Virus record (IMG/VR): IMGVR_UViG_3300047483_000537 | Location: 1-64,000 of that record | Strand: one strand, 5' to 3' | Length of the DNA stretch: 64,000 nt | Source of the DNA: a virus | Part shown: in pieces, positions 149-7,462 of the stretch | Numbering within the stretch: the first letter of the stretch is position 1 | Layout: the number at the start of each line of letters is the position of its first letter | Position numbers and translations under genes: made by a program | The notes under the pieces: generated by a model | The model's database searches: none | What the model was told of the DNA's origin: nothing | Seen by the model: only the letters and a program-made list of their open reading frames with translations

Positions 149-805
149 ATGAATATAGATTCCATAAGTAGTCTAATTTCTAGAATAGAAACGGACTTTG
201 GTTCCGAAAGTAAAATTTACGTAAAGCAAGATCGTGGAGAACCAGAATTAACTCTGAACTTACCAGAAAGTGAAAACTTTATAGGAACTATATATCCTAT
301 AGACATGCTTCATCCAGATGCATTCAAAAACATAACTCAAGCACCCAGCAACTACCTAGACAATAGACCTATTATTGTATATTCCAAAGGGTCACAGTTA
401 TATGATTTTTCAATACCACTGGAGTTTCAATTAAATACTCCGTACACTGGTAGACCCTTTATTCATACTAAATGGGATTGCTTTACTTTACTAAAAGATT
501 TCTATCAAAAAGAGCTCGGTATATCTATGCCAGATGTAAGCTATTTTGATGAGTGGTGGTCTAAAGGCAAAGACTTTTACATGGAAACCAGCGGCGTTGC
601 TGGATTTTATCCTACACTATCACTTAAAAAATACGATATTATTGCAATGCGAGTTAATTCGCATGTGTTTAATCATGCTGCAATTTATTTAGGTGAGAAC
701 AAAATCTTACACCACATGGGTGGAAAGTTTAGCTGTATCGAAGAAATAAGGCCTGCATACTTAAACATGCTATTTGGATACTTTAGACACAAAGATTTGG
801 TATAA
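149..805 (+). CDS. NlpC/P60 tail-tip peptidase (lambda K-like)
   Basis: Predicted cysteine peptidase of the NlpC/P60 superfamily. Such proteins sit in phage tail tips (lambda K type) and cut peptidoglycan cross-links during DNA entry or help tail assembly. The catalytic Cys is C111 in KWDCFTLLKDFY, the usual WDC context, followed by a GISMPD segment. The His position is in the NHAAIYLG stretch (H176), with HH at 188-189. Residues 1-95 are an N-terminal domain I cannot assign. At 218 aa it has roughly the size of the peptidase half of such proteins. It heads a run of tail genes and is followed 5 nt later by the next one. Family assignment is firm; the exact tail position is inferred. Confidence 0.85.
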   Translation: MNIDSISSLISRIETDFGSESKIYVKQDRGEPELTLNLPESENFIGTIYPIDMLHPDAFKNITQAPSNYLDNRPIIVYSKGSQLYDFSIPLEFQLNTPYTGRPFIHTKWDCFTLLKDFYQKELGISMPDVSYFDEWWSKGKDFYMETSGVAGFYPTLSLKKYDIIAMRVNSHVFNHAAIYLGENKILHHMGGKFSCIEEIRPAYLNMLFGYFRHKDLV

Positions 806-810
806 GTATT

Positions 811-2124
811 ATGGCTAAAACATTCTTTTCTGGTAAACACACAGACAATAATTTTTATACTGCTATATACTCAGGTACTAATGGTGCTGGCACAGAAGAC
901 TTACTTGCTAATCCATTAAACAGAATCAATGACGTACTATTCCATAGCAGTTTCTCCTATCTAAAATCAAACGTATCTTTTAGTGGTTCAATAAATCTAC
1001 CTAGTAGAGCCCCCACTTTTGTTAGTGGTAAAAAGAAAGGCCGAACCGTAGAAGTTCCTTCTTATGGTACTACAACATACCAAATCACATCAACAGATTA
1101 CACCAGTTCTGGGTTTCCGCCAATAGTGATACTTGTAGATACAACCAATAATGTAACTATATCCGGCACTGCACTAGTACAACAACAAAATGGTTCTACA
1201 GTTAGACAATTAACTGTTAGAGCAGAAGCAAGTGGAATATATGTTCAAGAATTTTACTTCGCCTATGGTTCTACTCTACCAGCCAAAACTTTTAATTACA
1301 AAGTTTATATATTAAAAGACCTTGCTGAAAAAACAGACGTAGGCAAACAACTATATATAAATGGTTCAAAGTTAACTGTTGCTGAAGGAAAGTTTAACAC
1401 AGATTTAGCTTATGTAAACTTAAAATCTGGTGCAGCAGCGGGCGGTACAACAACAAGCTATACTGAAACCACAAACCAATATTATGAGACAAGATTTGCT
1501 TTACGCAGATATTTAAAATATAGGCCAACTCAACCAGGTGGTGCAGTTACAGAAGTATCTTGGGATTCTTATATAAAATTTAATGGAAATATTGAAGGTG
1601 TATATGAATTAGTGCCAGGAGAAATTACCAGTTGGTATAATCCTGTAGACGGGTATACATATAAACGAGGTGATTTTGTAGAAACTTTGCTAGACTACAA
1701 TCACACCTGGAGAATGTATGCTTTAAACTCTAAGTCACAGTGGGTACTGATCAAAGAGACTATCCACGATAAAACTGTACTAGAAGCACTAGCAGATAGC
1801 GGTAGAGCAGCAATTCCTTATGGACCCTCAGCCGGATACTATCAAATGACTTCAAGTACTGGCAAATTTTTAGCAGTAGGAACTGTGGCCTCAAACTATA
1901 GCGGTAGTTATGTGCAGGCTTATAAAATTTATAGAAGTATGCCATATACACAAACAACTGGCAGAACAGGCGCGGCTTTTGTTAACGGAATAACTGTTAA
2001 CGTAGAGTCTGTGCCAGATAACACTTCTGCTGGCCTATCCTGGAACTTTGACGGGGTAAAAAACTCGTATGGAGAAGCAGCGGCTTTTCCAACAAATACG
2101 GTAATTGGAGTCAATTTACTATGA
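811..2124 (+). CDS. Putative tail-tip structural protein
   Basis: 437-aa protein rich in Ser, Thr, Gly, Tyr and Asn with few charged clusters, a composition typical of beta-rich phage tail or fibre proteins. No catalytic motif is visible. The N-terminus (MAKTFFSGKHTDNNFYTAIY) has no signal peptide. The gene starts 5 nt after the NlpC/P60 gene, and its TGA overlaps the ATG of the next gene, so co-translation of a tail operon is likely. I do not recognise the family; structural role is inferred from context and composition. Confidence 0.6.
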   Translation: MAKTFFSGKHTDNNFYTAIYSGTNGAGTEDLLANPLNRINDVLFHSSFSYLKSNVSFSGSINLPSRAPTFVSGKKKGRTVEVPSYGTTTYQITSTDYTSSGFPPIVILVDTTNNVTISGTALVQQQNGSTVRQLTVRAEASGIYVQEFYFAYGSTLPAKTFNYKVYILKDLAEKTDVGKQLYINGSKLTVAEGKFNTDLAYVNLKSGAAAGGTTTSYTETTNQYYETRFALRRYLKYRPTQPGGAVTEVSWDSYIKFNGNIEGVYELVPGEITSWYNPVDGYTYKRGDFVETLLDYNHTWRMYALNSKSQWVLIKETIHDKTVLEALADSGRAAIPYGPSAGYYQMTSSTGKFLAVGTVASNYSGSYVQAYKIYRSMPYTQTTGRTGAAFVNGITVNVESVPDNTSAGLSWNFDGVKNSYGEAAAFPTNTVIGVNLL

Positions 2125-2669
2125 GTTTTGTATCTTCTCCAAATAGATTCGTTATCAGAGACGCTAACTCTAATGTTAAGTTTGATACCGATGAGCCACA
2201 CCCTATTGTGTATGCCAGAACTCAGGGTTCGATTACTATTACTGCGCAACCAACAGCTACCACATTTACTTTTCCAACTGGAGAATCAAGTACTGGTACG
2301 GAAACCAGATACAACAGTGCTCCTATAATATCTAGTACTAATATTTATACGGCCCCTCCAGGCGTTGCTTTAGATTTTTGTATATCTTCAATTAGACTTA
2401 CTTCTTGTAATGTTACAGGAGCGGATGGAAGTTATTACTACTTTAAATTACCTTTAAATGTATGGCATTCAGCAAATGGCAGTGTTGTTGTAGACCAGTC
2501 AATAACACAGACAGGTAAGATACAAAGAGCTTCAGTAGCTACAATATATACTGTTGGAAACACCATACAGTTTTATTTTAAACGTAATGGATTTAATGAT
2601 GATGTTAATTTATTACATACGTACGTTTTTGATTACAACGTTCTTAGTTGTAAAATAAAACAAACCTAA
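2121..2669 (+). CDS. Putative tail structural protein
   Basis: 182 aa, again Ser/Thr/Tyr/Asn-rich with alternating hydrophobic residues suggesting a beta-sandwich. It begins MSFVSSPNRFVIRD and has no signal peptide or enzyme motif. Its ATG overlaps the previous stop (ATGA), and an AGGA-preceded gene follows 15 nt later. It probably works together with the upstream 437-aa protein at the tail tip. Function beyond that is unknown. Confidence 0.6.
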   Translation: MSFVSSPNRFVIRDANSNVKFDTDEPHPIVYARTQGSITITAQPTATTFTFPTGESSTGTETRYNSAPIISSTNIYTAPPGVALDFCISSIRLTSCNVTGADGSYYYFKLPLNVWHSANGSVVVDQSITQTGKIQRASVATIYTVGNTIQFYFKRNGFNDDVNLLHTYVFDYNVLSCKIKQT

Positions 2670-2684
2670 TTACTAGGAACATAA

Positions 2685-2990
2685 ATGATTCAAATAACTA
2701 AAATAGAGAATGATTTTATCAATCAGTATACTATTGCTACAGTAAACGTATACGAAACAACTTTAGGTGTACAGCGTCTTAAAGATACTTTTATTATTAC
2801 ATTAACAGGTATTTACGATATCAGTGACCCACAACTGTTAGATTTAATATATGCTAGACTACACAACATTGGCTACGAAGTTGTAGTACAAACTAGTGCT
2901 CCGGTTACACCAACCACACCATTAGATAGCTCTATTCAAGATAGTTTAGATGCAGCAGCTGCAGAAGCTTCTGACCAAGGAACCGTATAA
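2685..2990 (+). CDS. Small conserved-looking phage protein, unknown
   Basis: 101 aa with an AGGA ribosome binding site 7 nt before ATG. The N-terminal 80 residues look like a compact alpha/beta domain (MIQITKIENDFINQYTIATV...). The C-terminal 20 residues are low-complexity and acidic/Ala-rich. No family recognised. It lies between tail genes and the PP-loop ATPase cassette, so it may belong to either. Confidence 0.6.
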   Translation: MIQITKIENDFINQYTIATVNVYETTLGVQRLKDTFIITLTGIYDISDPQLLDLIYARLHNIGYEVVVQTSAPVTPTTPLDSSIQDSLDAAAAEASDQGTV

Positions 2991-2992
2991 TA

Positions 2993-3922
2993 ATGAAAAC
3001 GTACTTATTGCCATGTAGAAACGATTATAACAGTTTTTGGCATCCAATATGCAGTATGTATGGTGGAAATATACTAGACAGGACTAATACGTTATCTTTT
3101 GGTAACTTTAAGTACAAAACCTTAACTGCAATCCCAGAGATGAAACCGATGCCATATAGTTTTGCAGAACTAGCAGACATGCGCGGAGAACATTTGGGTG
3201 CACTGGCACAAAGCAAAAATTGCAGAATTAATTTAATGTGGAGTGGGGGAATAGACAGTACTGTAGCGGCAGTATCTTTTATGAAATCAAATTTAGCTAA
3301 AAAACACTTAGTTATCTTATTAAATAAAAATTCTATTGGCGAATATCCCCTATTTTTTAATGAGTTTATTAAAGACAAAGTAAAGTACGAGATAGTAGAT
3401 TCACCCAAGAATTTTATAAAATACGAAGATATTAATATAACTGGCGAGATAGGTGATCAACTATTTGGCAGTGCTATGTTTACTACAGCACACAGAGCTG
3501 AAAAACTATTCTCTGCTCCAGAAGCGTTCTTTTCAAAAGAGTTCTTGAATGTTATGGAACCACAGATAGTACATTCGCCATATGAGCTAAAACAAGTAAA
3601 AGATTACTTATGGTGGATGAATTTTTCTTTGAAATATCAAAACGTACAGTTAAGAATATACCCTAGTGTATTTATGCCGTATGGAGGAATTACTCACTTT
3701 TTTGATACTGAAGAATTTCAGCTATGGTCTATGAATAATCCCGACAATAAAATAAAAGATACTATGGCTAGCTATAAATGGCCAGCAAAAGACTACATAT
3801 TTGAATATACCCAAGATTCAGAATACAGAGACTTTAAGCTAAAAGTTGGTAGTTTAAAAATAGGCCCTATAAAATGTGCTATTGACGAAAACTTTAAGTA
3901 TGAGGTTTGCTATGTTAACTAA
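2993..3922 (+). CDS. Asparagine-synthetase-like PP-loop ATPase
   Basis: 309-aa protein with an ATP-pyrophosphatase PP-loop, SGGIDST at residues 84-90, and a second motif TGEIGDQLFGS at 150-160. The latter matches the GE.SDE(L)FGGY element of the asparagine synthetase synthetase domain. Such enzymes adenylate a carboxylate and transfer an amine or other nucleophile. The N-terminal 75 residues are short and lack the Cys-2 glutaminase (class II GATase) domain of AsnB, so ammonia or another nucleophile must come from elsewhere. The gene overlaps the next CDS by 11 nt and is followed by a cupin gene, suggesting a small modification pathway. Substrate unknown; enzyme class fairly sure. Confidence 0.78.
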   Translation: MKTYLLPCRNDYNSFWHPICSMYGGNILDRTNTLSFGNFKYKTLTAIPEMKPMPYSFAELADMRGEHLGALAQSKNCRINLMWSGGIDSTVAAVSFMKSNLAKKHLVILLNKNSIGEYPLFFNEFIKDKVKYEIVDSPKNFIKYEDINITGEIGDQLFGSAMFTTAHRAEKLFSAPEAFFSKEFLNVMEPQIVHSPYELKQVKDYLWWMNFSLKYQNVQLRIYPSVFMPYGGITHFFDTEEFQLWSMNNPDNKIKDTMASYKWPAKDYIFEYTQDSEYRDFKLKVGSLKIGPIKCAIDENFKYEVCYVN

Positions 3923-5051
3923 TTTAAATGAATTTTTATTATCTGCTAATTCTGACAACAGGCCCAGCAATGAAACTATATTAAGTAATATAAATCTACT
4001 AAGTGCAGAAGATTCAGAATATGCTGAAAAACTTACTCGTGAGTTAACTAATCTCTGTATAGTTAGACCATTGATAGTTAAATCTATTAAAATGGCTAAA
4101 ACTTTGGCTTGGCGAACTTACATAGATGATAATAATGTAAGCAAGACTAACAGTACAATGGCCAACGTAATAAAACTATTAGATAAGTCTGAAATAAATT
4201 TATGGACACTGGAGCTTTATGAAGAAGGTTCTCTAAATGTCCGCAATTTTGTACACAGAGTTAATGCCTTATCTGGATATAATAAAGTACCATATTTACA
4301 TATTCTATTAAAATCTTTAAATAAAAAGATTAATAGCACTAAAAAACTAAAAACCAAACAGGATGTAAAAAACTTATTTGACAATCCTGAGTTAGTACCA
4401 CAACTAGAAACTTGGATTGCTGCCGATGAAGTAAAAAGATATTCTGGCGAAACAGTAACTAATCCAAATATATACTCTTGGGTAGTTAAACAGTTTCCTT
4501 TAGATACACAAGCTATACAGTCTGCAGAAATTGGCTATGATTTAGGTGGTGGCTTTGCTACGCCCGGAATAAGTATACTGTTTAATAAACCAATGGTTTC
4601 ATTAGACGTAATTGACCCTAGCAATAATAGCGATGTAATACTAAGTGTGCCTGAACTTACAACATTAGCAGAGTATAGGGATTTACTAGCGCAACAACCA
4701 TACATCAGGTTCGATGTATTTGCTGACGACTTTCCAGACAATTATAATTCATATTTTATAACAAGTTTTGGTTTTGCCACTTCAACGGTTAGCTATACAG
4801 GTAACGAAACTGTAGCGGGAGCTGCCTGGGTAAATACTACTTATAATTCTATGAAACGTTTGGCTAATTTGATAGCAAAAAACAAAGATGTATACTTCTT
4901 GCTATATGGACGCCCAACAAACAGAATACACAGAAATAAAGTAATAGCAATGCGCTTTAATAACAGAGTAATGCAATCTGTAGAAATATACGAAGATAAC
5001 TATAGTACCAAAAACGATCATAGCTTTGGTATAACCCATGTGTTATTTTAA
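3912..5051 (+). CDS. Rossmann/methyltransferase-like protein
   Basis: 379 aa. The start is the ATG with GAGG six bases upstream; an earlier in-frame ATG has no such site. Residues 1-200 are helical and unassigned. From about 207 there is a Rossmann-type glycine loop (GYDLGGGFATPG, D210, GGG 212-214), then an acidic strand end (MVSLDVIDP, D232/D235), then FITSFGFATSTV. This order resembles motifs I, II and IV of class I SAM-dependent methyltransferases, but no diagnostic catalytic motif is visible, so another nucleotide-binding role is possible. It overlaps the PP-loop gene by 11 nt and precedes the cupin gene by 8 nt, which implies one transcript. Confidence 0.62.
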   Translation: MLTNLNEFLLSANSDNRPSNETILSNINLLSAEDSEYAEKLTRELTNLCIVRPLIVKSIKMAKTLAWRTYIDDNNVSKTNSTMANVIKLLDKSEINLWTLELYEEGSLNVRNFVHRVNALSGYNKVPYLHILLKSLNKKINSTKKLKTKQDVKNLFDNPELVPQLETWIAADEVKRYSGETVTNPNIYSWVVKQFPLDTQAIQSAEIGYDLGGGFATPGISILFNKPMVSLDVIDPSNNSDVILSVPELTTLAEYRDLLAQQPYIRFDVFADDFPDNYNSYFITSFGFATSTVSYTGNETVAGAAWVNTTYNSMKRLANLIAKNKDVYFLLYGRPTNRIHRNKVIAMRFNNRVMQSVEIYEDNYSTKNDHSFGITHVLF

Positions 5052-5059
5052 GGATTAAT

Positions 5060-5674
5060 ATGTTATTTTGTTCATTTTTTAATTCCGAAAAATCATCCAT
5101 TGTAGAATCAACTGACACAGACCTGTATCAATATAAAGCATATATTGGACCACACAGTATATCTACTAATCCAAAGTCTAGTTACTGGTATATTAACGAT
5201 GCCGTAGTCGGGTGTTTAACAGGCAATTACACTACCATTGAATCCGAAAAGTTATGTGTAGAAATTATTGGATATACTCCTGAAGATAGAACTTCTAGTT
5301 ATCACAGGTATACAGATTTACCGTATATTAATGGGTGCAGTTCAAAACAACTAATACCGCCTAATAGATTAGGTGATCCAACATGGCAGATGTTGTATAT
5401 ACCTGAAAATACTTCGGAACAAGCTCATCATATTCATGCTACTACAAGAGTTGTATACGTGGCTAAAGGTTTTGGATTCTCTCATGTTGGTAATAGTGAT
5501 AAGGTCACTACTACAGCACTGTATCCAGGACAAGTAATTATCCTAGATAAAATGGTTCCACATCATTTTAGTACTGAGAACGATAGTTTAATAGTTATAC
5601 CCTTACACGTATTTAGCTCTATTGGCGGCGCTGAACATAATCATCCTATGTTTAATGGCACTCATAGAGTGTAA
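5060..5674 (+). CDS. Cupin-fold protein
   Basis: 204 aa with a C-terminal cupin. Motif 1 is HHIHATTRVVYVAKGFG (H123, H124, H126) and motif 2 is LYPGQVIILDKMVPHHF (H168/H169). The His residues suit a single bound metal. The N-terminal 100 residues are unassigned. Cupins of this size act as dioxygenases, isomerases or ligand-binding proteins. AAGGA 6 nt before the ATG supports the start. Last gene of the PP-loop cassette; a promoter follows within 30 nt of its stop. Fold confident, reaction unknown. Confidence 0.75.
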   Translation: MLFCSFFNSEKSSIVESTDTDLYQYKAYIGPHSISTNPKSSYWYINDAVVGCLTGNYTTIESEKLCVEIIGYTPEDRTSSYHRYTDLPYINGCSSKQLIPPNRLGDPTWQMLYIPENTSEQAHHIHATTRVVYVAKGFGFSHVGNSDKVTTTALYPGQVIILDKMVPHHFSTENDSLIVIPLHVFSSIGGAEHNHPMFNGTHRV

Positions 5675-5995: not shown

Positions 5996-6142
5996 CTTTA
6001 ATTTAGGTATAGTGAAAGAAACAGTTACTTCAATTGATAATGACGTGGTCGGTGGTTCGAGTCCACCCCAAGGCGCAAGCCAAAGTAGCTCAGTTGGTAG
6101 AGCACGAAAATCTCTGTTTCGCCTAGTTCTTACTTATTAAAA
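5996..6142 (+). ncRNA. Y RNA-like (YrlA-type) RNA 1 with permuted tRNA-like module
   Basis: Three visible modules. A closing stem TTTAAT/ATTAAA flanks an internal loop whose 3' strand contains ACTTATT. A GAAACAG/CTGTTTC helix follows. Inside is a tRNA-like block in permuted order: a T-arm (GGTGG-TTCGAGT-CCACC, 6051-6067), a short GGC-GCAA-GCC hairpin in place of an acceptor stem, then a D-arm (GCTC-AGTTGGTA-GAGC, 6088-6103). This is the arrangement described for bacterial YrlA RNAs, which bind Rsr/Ro60 and mimic tRNA. It sits directly before the rsr ribosome binding site. Exact ends are inferred. Confidence 0.72.
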
Positions 6143-6151
6143 AGGAATCAA

Positions 6152-7462
6152 ATGTCTTCGATCAATCGCGTTGTGCGTAACCCTGTTTTCAATTCTGTTG
6201 GTACGCAAGTATCGCAAATTAGTGCAGAACGCCAGCTAAAGCGCGTAACCATGGCAGCAATGTTGTGGGAAAACCAGTTCTATATGGACGGCAAAACTCA
6301 CGCTGAGTTGGTCAAAGACCTTGTAGCTAAAGTCGCTCCTGAAAAGGTATCGGCTCTGGCTGAGGAAGCTCGTACTAAGTTTAAACTTCGTCACATTCCT
6401 CTGTTGCTTGCCCGCGAGTTAGCTCGAAACGGAAAACTGCAAGCACAAACCCTAACCAATGTTATTCAGCGTCCAGACGAAATGTCTGAATTTTTGAGTA
6501 TCTATTGGAAGGAAGGCAAAACTGCTGTCTCAAACCAAGTTAAAAAAGGCTTAGCGGCTTGTTTTAATAAGTTTTCAGAATACCAGCTTGCCAAATGGAA
6601 TAAGAATTCATCCGCAATTCGTTTGCGCGATGTAATGTTTATCTCCCACCCTAAACCGCAAAATGCCGAGCAAACAGCGTTGTTTCAACGCATTGCGGCT
6701 GATACACTTGAGACTCCTGACACATGGGAAACTCAATTATCTAGCGGCGCAGATAAGTGTGGTACGTTCTCCAGACTAATGTTGGAGAAAAAGCTAGGCG
6801 CTCTAGCTTTCTTGCGTAATCTGCGTAATATGCGCGACAGTGGTGTAGCGGATTCCCTTATCCGCAGTTATGCACAAACTGTTGACGTTAGTCGTGTCCT
6901 GCCTTTCCGCTATATTGCGGCGGCACGTATTGTTCCACAATACGAGGATATGCTAGAACAAATGATGTTCCGTAGCCTTGCTCAACATCAAAAAATTCCT
7001 GGAAAGACTGTTCTGTTGATCGACGTAAGTGGCTCAATGTTCGGTACCAGAATTTCCTCAAAATCAGATCTAGATCGCTTCGATGCGGCAGCTGCACTTG
7101 CTATGCTGTGCCGTGAAGTTTGTGAGGAAGTCGAGATTTATAGCTTTAGCAATAATGCTGTGCGCGTTGCACCTCGTCGTGGATTTGCTCTCCGCGAAGC
7201 TATTTCAAGCTCTCAAAGTCACGGTGGAACTGCTCTTGGCAATTCCATGAAGACTGTAGACAGCAACAGTTTGTACGACCGTTGTATTGTGTTTACTGAC
7301 GAGCAAAGCTATGATCGCCCAGGTGCTCCTCGTAACAAAGGCTACATTATCAATGTGGCTAGCTACGAAAATGGGGTTAACCACCAAGCATGGACTGAGA
7401 TTAATGGTTTCTCAGAGTCTGTAATTGATTACATCCAAGCGTTGGAGCAGGAAGCTGCTTAA
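6152..7462 (+). CDS. rsr: Rsr: Ro60 ortholog, TROVE-vWA RNA-binding ring protein
   Basis: 436 aa. The N-terminal 270 residues form the helical TROVE HEAT-repeat domain. It is followed by a von Willebrand A domain with the MIDAS motif DVSGS (D291, S293, S295), the GGTALG loop and FTDEQ. Known bacterial Rsr proteins bind Y RNAs and steer RNA degradation or maturation, for example with PNPase in Deinococcus. It is shorter than human Ro60 (about 538 aa) but both domains are complete. AAGGA lies 5 nt before ATG and overlaps the foot of Y RNA 1. Further Y RNA-like elements follow at once, so protein and RNA partners are encoded together. Codon use appears less AT-rich than in the tail genes upstream. 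Confidence 0.93.
   Translation: MSSINRVVRNPVFNSVGTQVSQISAERQLKRVTMAAMLWENQFYMDGKTHAELVKDLVAKVAPEKVSALAEEARTKFKLRHIPLLLARELARNGKLQAQTLTNVIQRPDEMSEFLSIYWKEGKTAVSNQVKKGLAACFNKFSEYQLAKWNKNSSAIRLRDVMFISHPKPQNAEQTALFQRIAADTLETPDTWETQLSSGADKCGTFSRLMLEKKLGALAFLRNLRNMRDSGVADSLIRSYAQTVDVSRVLPFRYIAAARIVPQYEDMLEQMMFRSLAQHQKIPGKTVLLIDVSGSMFGTRISSKSDLDRFDAAAALAMLCREVCEEVEIYSFSNNAVRVAPRRGFALREAISSSQSHGGTALGNSMKTVDSNSLYDRCIVFTDEQSYDRPGAPRNKGYIINVASYENGVNHQAWTEINGFSESVIDYIQALEQEAA

Follow-up and report, generated by a model that had tools for sequence, protein, structure and literature searches.

A free-standing asparagine synthetase B-type PP-loop protein and its cupin partner, a candidate modification module of uncultured phages

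The window analysed here comprises the first 64,000 nucleotides of a 96.6-kb viral contig (IMG/VR record IMGVR_UViG_3300047483_000537) and begins with its first base. Near its 5′ end, three ORFs encoding a PP-loop protein, a protein referred to here as ORF2, and a cupin lie on the plus strand in a single run with tail genes (Table 1). Their spacing is tight: 2 nt separate the 101-aa gene from the PP-loop gene, the PP-loop gene overlaps ORF2 by 11 nt if ORF2 starts at ATG 3912, and 8 nt lie between ORF2 and the cupin gene. This ATG, giving 379 aa, is preferred over GTG 3876 because it aligns with the starts of the homologues. An earlier note on this DNA had described three overlapping or adjacent genes at 2993-5674, foreign to ordinary tail machinery; the arrangement is borne out, and the foreign character of the set is supported. 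The PP-loop and cupin ORFs are not chance ORFs, as both proteins are conserved across very diverse phages.

Table 1. Genes of the tail module and of the adjoining PP-loop–cupin locus in the window.
Feature	Position	Strand	Evidence
NlpC/P60-type tail-tip protein (minor tail)	149..805	+	Pfam NLPC_P60 1.5e-7; PHROG_30 minor tail 5e-38
Tail-module protein, type unassigned	811..2124	+	Directly 5′ in the two closest relatives (L001/L002), 42-44% identity; no match in Pfam and PHROG searches
Tail-module protein	2121..2669	+	Same position in L001/L002, 47-49% identity
Small 101-aa protein	2685..2990	+	Kept in L001/L002, 59-63% identity over 76-83 aa
PP-loop ATP-pyrophosphatase, predicted stand-alone synthetase domain (asparagine synthetase B superfamily), 309 aa	2993..3922	+	Motifs, AlphaFold2 (AF2) model, VIA
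ORF2, 379 aa, conserved D-[LI]-GGG; possible methyltransferase; putative optional passenger	3912..5051	+	Homologues in L001, L002, L093
Phage-specific cupin, 204 aa, three invariant His; partner of the PP-loop gene	5060..5674	+	Pfam Cupin_2; column counts

The PP-loop protein carries the motifs SGGIDST and GEIGDQLFGS and a C-terminal K-x-K. A Pfam search returned no family above threshold and no significant Asn_synthase match. An AF2 model built from an alignment of 31 diverse relatives was confident (pLDDT 91.6, pTM 0.91). In Foldseek and VIA comparisons its best match was beta-lactam synthetase (VIA Z 13.9), followed by TsnB9 (Z 13.4), human asparagine synthetase ASNS (Z 12.8), E. coli AsnB (Z 12.4), and carbapenam synthetase (Z 11.9). 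The twelve top VIA matches (Z 11.5-13.9) all belong to the AsnB superfamily, after which scores drop to 9.9 for GMP synthetase and to about 8 for LarE and TilS (MesJ/TilS, 8.1). The model has the AsnB-superfamily synthetase-domain fold in the broad sense and aligns to the synthetase half of AsnB only, from residue 173 of the E. coli protein onward; the N-terminal Ntn glutaminase domain with its catalytic Cys is absent. The confident model thus portrays the protein as an AsnB-superfamily synthetase domain lacking the glutaminase half. This is what the earlier note had proposed, and the structural comparison that it had named as a check returned the fold it predicted.

Within an alignment of 134 PP-loop proteins, the SGGxDS columns are nearly invariant (first S in 130/134, both G and the D in 133/134, last S in 132/134). 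Outside this motif, Glu occupies the position of AsnB E348 in 114 of the 134 proteins, and a C-terminal Lys occupies the position of K449 in 126 of the 127 non-gap rows. Residue equivalence beyond the PP-loop is motif-based, because an HHalign comparison of the family with a single AsnB sequence aligned the PP-loop alone. As the SGGxDS residues and those at the E348 and K449 positions are kept, the ATP chemistry is probably intact. Neither the Glu nor the Tyr found at AsnB positions 352 and 357 is kept: Gln stands at the former in 114/134 proteins, and Asp, Ala or Ser at the latter in most. Both AsnB residues lie within SGEGSDEVFGGY, to which TGEIGDQLFGSA corresponds by motif in the PP-loop protein. 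The nitrile synthetase PesC has a Glu and, five residues away, a Tyr, both of which related amidating enzymes conserve; changing the Tyr to Phe abolished activity and changing the Glu to Ala reduced it (PMC13060819). The spacing of this pair equals that of the E352 and Y357 positions. The substrate site therefore seems, by motif comparison, to differ from those of known amidating relatives, and the substrate is perhaps no plain carboxylate, since the equivalents of two PesC residues that seem to handle the carboxylate are replaced.

All 13 members of the first cupin alignment match Pfam Cupin_2, and C93, Q121, H124, H126 and R130 are each present in 88/88 sequences, with H168 in 87/88. The HxH of motif 1 and the His of motif 2 that mark metal cupins are both found, which agrees with the description of a two-motif metal cupin in the earlier note. 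This metal-site pattern is shared with the Cupin_2 metal cupins, from which the phage family differs in having Arg130, in all 88 sequences, in place of the motif-1 Glu ligand, and in two further conserved features, the extended stretch LPYINGC...GDP...EQ and the tail HPM.NGT at the C terminus. Three-histidine cupins lacking the motif-1 Glu are known. The closest solved structures were acireductone dioxygenases; all of these matches were sub-threshold, and assignment to that enzyme was rejected.

Association of the two genes was assessed from both sides. Cupin-driven scans of viral contigs yielded 51 loci. In 38 of them the cupin and a PP-loop gene lie no more than 1.5 kb apart, and 41 have a PP-loop gene anywhere in the fetched stretch; some of the ten loci lacking the partner are truncated by contig ends. 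A PP-loop-driven scan found at least 526 relatives, the best 80 of which were kept, and exclusion of the L001 copy left 79 loci. Within this best-80 sample a cupin lies within 1.5 kb of the PP-loop gene in 36/79 loci or, after collapsing at 60% identity, in 23 of 50 lineages, while 25/79 loci have neither the cupin nor the third partner described below. Pooling both sets gave 37 cupin-paired lineages out of 68 (34 with both genes on the same strand, in both gene orders and with many 4-nt overlaps), a count biased toward cupins because the set was partly found through them; the PP-loop-driven scan provides the fairer figure. On a quick tree of the PP-loop proteins, cupin-linked rows are scattered, with at least seven changes on well-supported branches. 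It is well supported by this gene linkage that the AsnB-type ATP-pyrophosphatase and the cupin would function together in many phages, as a unit of two and not of three genes. The single three-gene cassette of the earlier note does not hold up: in the conserved-together comparison that it had suggested, the result is mixed: the PP-loop and cupin genes stay together widely, and ORF2 is rare and, outside the window, occurs without the cupin. At two of the ten loci without the usual partner (L038:4592-7524 and L049:5257-8185) the cupin stands beside a PP-loop gene of a different kind, PAPS-reductase-like by eye. Two ParB-like genes flank this gene, an arrangement that looks IbrA/IbrB-like, and terminase genes are next to it.

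Homologues of ORF2 were found only in the contigs L001, L002 and L093, at 41-47% identity. The glycine-rich motif I, D-[LI]-GGG, is conserved in 4/4 known members, so the motif element of the earlier description of a DLGGG Rossmann-loop protein stands. The AF2 model, from an alignment of four sequences only, reached pLDDT 52, its best VIA match was RadA at Z 4.1, with the methyltransferases CgnL and CcbJ at 3.1-3.5, and the low-scoring matches were mixed, some being methyltransferases and others RecA-like. Pfam, a PDB profile search, AlphaFold2 and fold searches established no methyltransferase, and the methylation step once proposed for this locus goes back to one motif. A methyltransferase is possible. 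In the jumbo relatives L001 and L002, ORF2 lies beside a PP-loop gene with the cupin absent; in L093 it occurs with neither gene and adjoins a UDP-glucose-dehydrogenase-like gene. By its distribution ORF2 appears to be an optional passenger. The window (8555-9022) and L093 (3352-3828) also have in common a small protein that is RNase-H-like by eye.

A third protein family recurs at these loci. A protein of about 220 aa (200-250 aa) adjoins the PP-loop gene in 33/79 PP-loop-selected loci (best 80 of at least 526), the two genes generally overlapping by at least 4 nt, and 44 of 45 copies found adjoin a PP-loop or cupin gene. An hhalign comparison gave 96.6% for homology between its two branches, A8 and A9, and Pfam and PDB searches gave no meaningful match. 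The gene was not found in the window's record. In L001 and L002 it adjoins other, well-matching PP-loop paralogues, and the gene adjoining the 55-kb/156-kb PP-loop copies is a weak match to the family; a wide cupin profile found no cupin near these other copies in the fetched stretches. Profile comparisons lent no support to ORF2, or to the N-terminal extension of 568-aa PP-loop proteins, as a relative of the third partner.

By sequence search, the PP-loop and cupin pair recurs in dozens of unrelated uncultured phages and almost never in bacteria. Among 50,697 phage records there was no DNA match and no cupin or ORF2 match, and the sole PP-loop match was a distant one in the isolate Pseudomonas phage Cygsa01, where two PP-loop genes lie downstream of baseplate-wedge and hypothetical genes. 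These members (L058:6670-8819) are annotated as tRNA thiouridylase MnmA, probably wrongly. Beyond the MAG and single-cell records L022, L023 and L024, a search of about 485 further genomes from two classes found no cupin, and the PP-loop family was likewise found in none (one of the two PP-loop searches had no positive control). The PP-loop protein of L024, used as a query against plasmids, gave no match. The pair is not strictly viral, because L024, a contig of a Bacteroidia MAG, carries both genes; the cupin family is nearly phage-only. In the bacterial single-cell genome L022 (7950-8609) a cupin without a PP-loop gene lies by sulfotransferase-like and ATP-grasp-like genes. Four to five PP-loop paralogues are clustered in L172 and L167, in the former 5′ of a terminase gene.

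Upstream genes in 68 lineages match tail-fibre and terminase PHROGs about equally, and 23/80 loci (best 80 of at least 526) encode a Gly-rich fibre-like protein close to the PP-loop gene. Since terminase neighbours are about as frequent as fibre genes, the pair may be associated with late genes as a whole. Other lineages have neighbours that read, by sequence, as radical-SAM, desaturase-like, glycosyltransferase-like or acetyltransferase-like enzymes. The neighbourhood is late and structural, and a fibre substrate would not follow from the neighbourhood alone.

Several RNA features lie 3′ of the cupin in the window. A full-length, sub-threshold match to the Rfam YrlA (Y RNA-like) family at 6021-6133 (+; 30.8 bits, E 0.0024) is situated just 5′ of a TROVE/Ro60-type gene at 6152-7462 (+), and the two may represent a phage Ro60 and Y RNA pair. 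A permuted tmRNA gene at 9489-9754 (+; Rfam RF04321, 115.6 bits), with the tag ANDQVYALAA predicted by ARAGORN, is followed downstream by a ClpP-like gene, and the phage has a large tRNA set. A weak tRNA-Sec-like match at 10420-10507 (+), with 35.9 bits against a gathering score of 47, is absent from the ARAGORN output.

The chemistry class of the PP-loop and cupin pair is well supported. As a tentative best explanation, the pair could combine an ATP-dependent activating enzyme with a metal enzyme that together modify a virion protein, as a virion-maturation module. The PP-loop protein would adenylate a carboxylate (or amide) of the substrate with ATP and release PPi, as asparagine synthetase B does. 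The activated group would then be attacked by free ammonia or by the substrate's own amine, because the PP-loop protein has no glutaminase, to give an amide, an isopeptide or lactam, or a nitrile. The cupin, as a three-histidine metal enzyme, would oxidise or rearrange this product, or prepare the substrate. The likeliest target would be a virion protein encoded in the late operon that contains the pair, which in many lineages would mean a protein of the tail fibre or tail tip; more broadly worded, the target would be a surface molecule or a virion protein. The third protein of some phages (A8/A9) might serve as adaptor or substrate, and ORF2 as an optional extra tailoring enzyme. We infer the carboxylate adenylation, the order of the steps and the virion target; the mechanism is the most economical one.

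Since enzyme genes flank the pair in some lineages, a small-molecule target remains in consideration. AsnB-like proteins amidate sugar acids in O-antigen pathways, and the PP-loop protein could similarly amidate a sugar acid while the cupin acts as a sugar isomerase, altering the host surface or decorating the fibres. Genes read by sequence as UDP-glucose dehydrogenase-like, glycosyltransferase-like, radical-SAM and sulfotransferase-like in L005, L003 and L118 are in line with such a pathway, as are the cupin-fold isomerases of jumbo-phage sugar pathways (PMC7824862). However, in the large L098-type group the pair has only fibre-like genes on its two sides and no sugar enzymes close by, no NCBIfam sugar amidotransferase appeared among the matches of 16 members, and nothing glycan-related adjoins the pair in the window, so that a sugar substrate is rather doubtful. 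Cargo at a late-gene hot spot (counter-defence, superinfection exclusion or host interaction), whose position would be functionally meaningless, would suit the lineage-dependent neighbours, terminase genes included, and the tandem PP-loop copies of L172. We regard it as improbable, given that the genes are same-strand and often overlapping inside late operons, that PADLOC found no match to the three window proteins at E values up to 1, and that no defence genes were identified alongside.

Two further readings set the cupin aside or turn to nucleic acids. Viral 'asparagine synthase' genes have been reported as nitrogen auxiliary metabolic genes (PMC10465536, PMC13288924), and the AsnB-superfamily fold, together with some structural relatives in BFVD named asparagine synthase, would fit a PP-loop gene whose product supplies the host with asparagine or some other amide, beside an incidental cupin. 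This is very unlikely in the face of the strong linkage to one specific cupin, the absent glutaminase domain, the replaced E352 and Y357 equivalents, the lack of a significant Pfam Asn_synthase match, and the up to six PP-loop paralogues in one phage, mostly with a third-family neighbour. That the pair does not make asparagine is moderately supported, asparagine synthesis being disfavoured by the missing glutaminase, the altered substrate residues, the recurrent cupin partner and the structural-gene neighbourhood. Less likely still is modification of RNA or DNA by a TilS-, MnmA- or QueC-like enzyme, which the PP-loop fold, the many tRNAs and the tmRNA of the window, and weak NCBIfam and PHROG matches to TilS and QueC (E ~0.005-0.05, in one or two members) might suggest; the model matches AsnB-type synthetases (Z 11.5-13.9) better than MesJ/TilS (8.1), the QueC-type cysteine motif was not seen in the sequence, and the genes found upstream in other phages have no relation to tRNA.

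Among known systems, the synthetase domain of E. coli AsnB resembles the PP-loop protein in fold (Z 12.4), SGGxDS, the GE..D motif, and the Glu and Lys at the E348 and K449 positions; the phage protein differs in lacking the glutaminase, in the changes of Glu352 to Gln and Tyr357 to Asp, Ala or Ser, in its cupin pairing and in its near confinement to phages. Beta-lactam and carbapenam synthetases, structural matches at Z 13.9 and 11.9, activate a carboxylate by adenylation and rely on an internal amine instead of ammonia. They retain an N-terminal glutaminase-like domain, which the phage protein, at 10-15% identity, does not have. PesC, TsrC and AsnO are AsnB-superfamily enzymes that act on peptides; their conserved Glu-Tyr pair is apparently replaced here, by motif spacing, and a precursor peptide was not identified for the phage pair. 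PesC works beside oxidative enzymes, and asparagine synthetase-like enzymes modify peptides, as in the C-terminal nitrile of nitrilobacillins (PMC13060819). A search of open-access literature found no paper on the PP-loop and cupin pair, in agreement with the earlier note, which knew of no described phage system with these genes; as far as that literature shows, this is probably an undescribed phage modification system.

Virome surveys may well list such genes under nitrogen metabolism as 'asnB'. Modification of virion proteins by the pair, if true, would represent an undescribed phage chemistry, common to very different phages. A bolder and more doubtful version is a widespread virion-modification system in which an AsnB-type enzyme, a cupin and often the third protein place a new amide, crosslink or nitrile-type mark on tail proteins; if true, it would amount to RiPP-like tailoring acting on the virus particle. 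The PP-loop protein, the cupin and the third partner form an alignable set of families with which such systems may be found in isolates.
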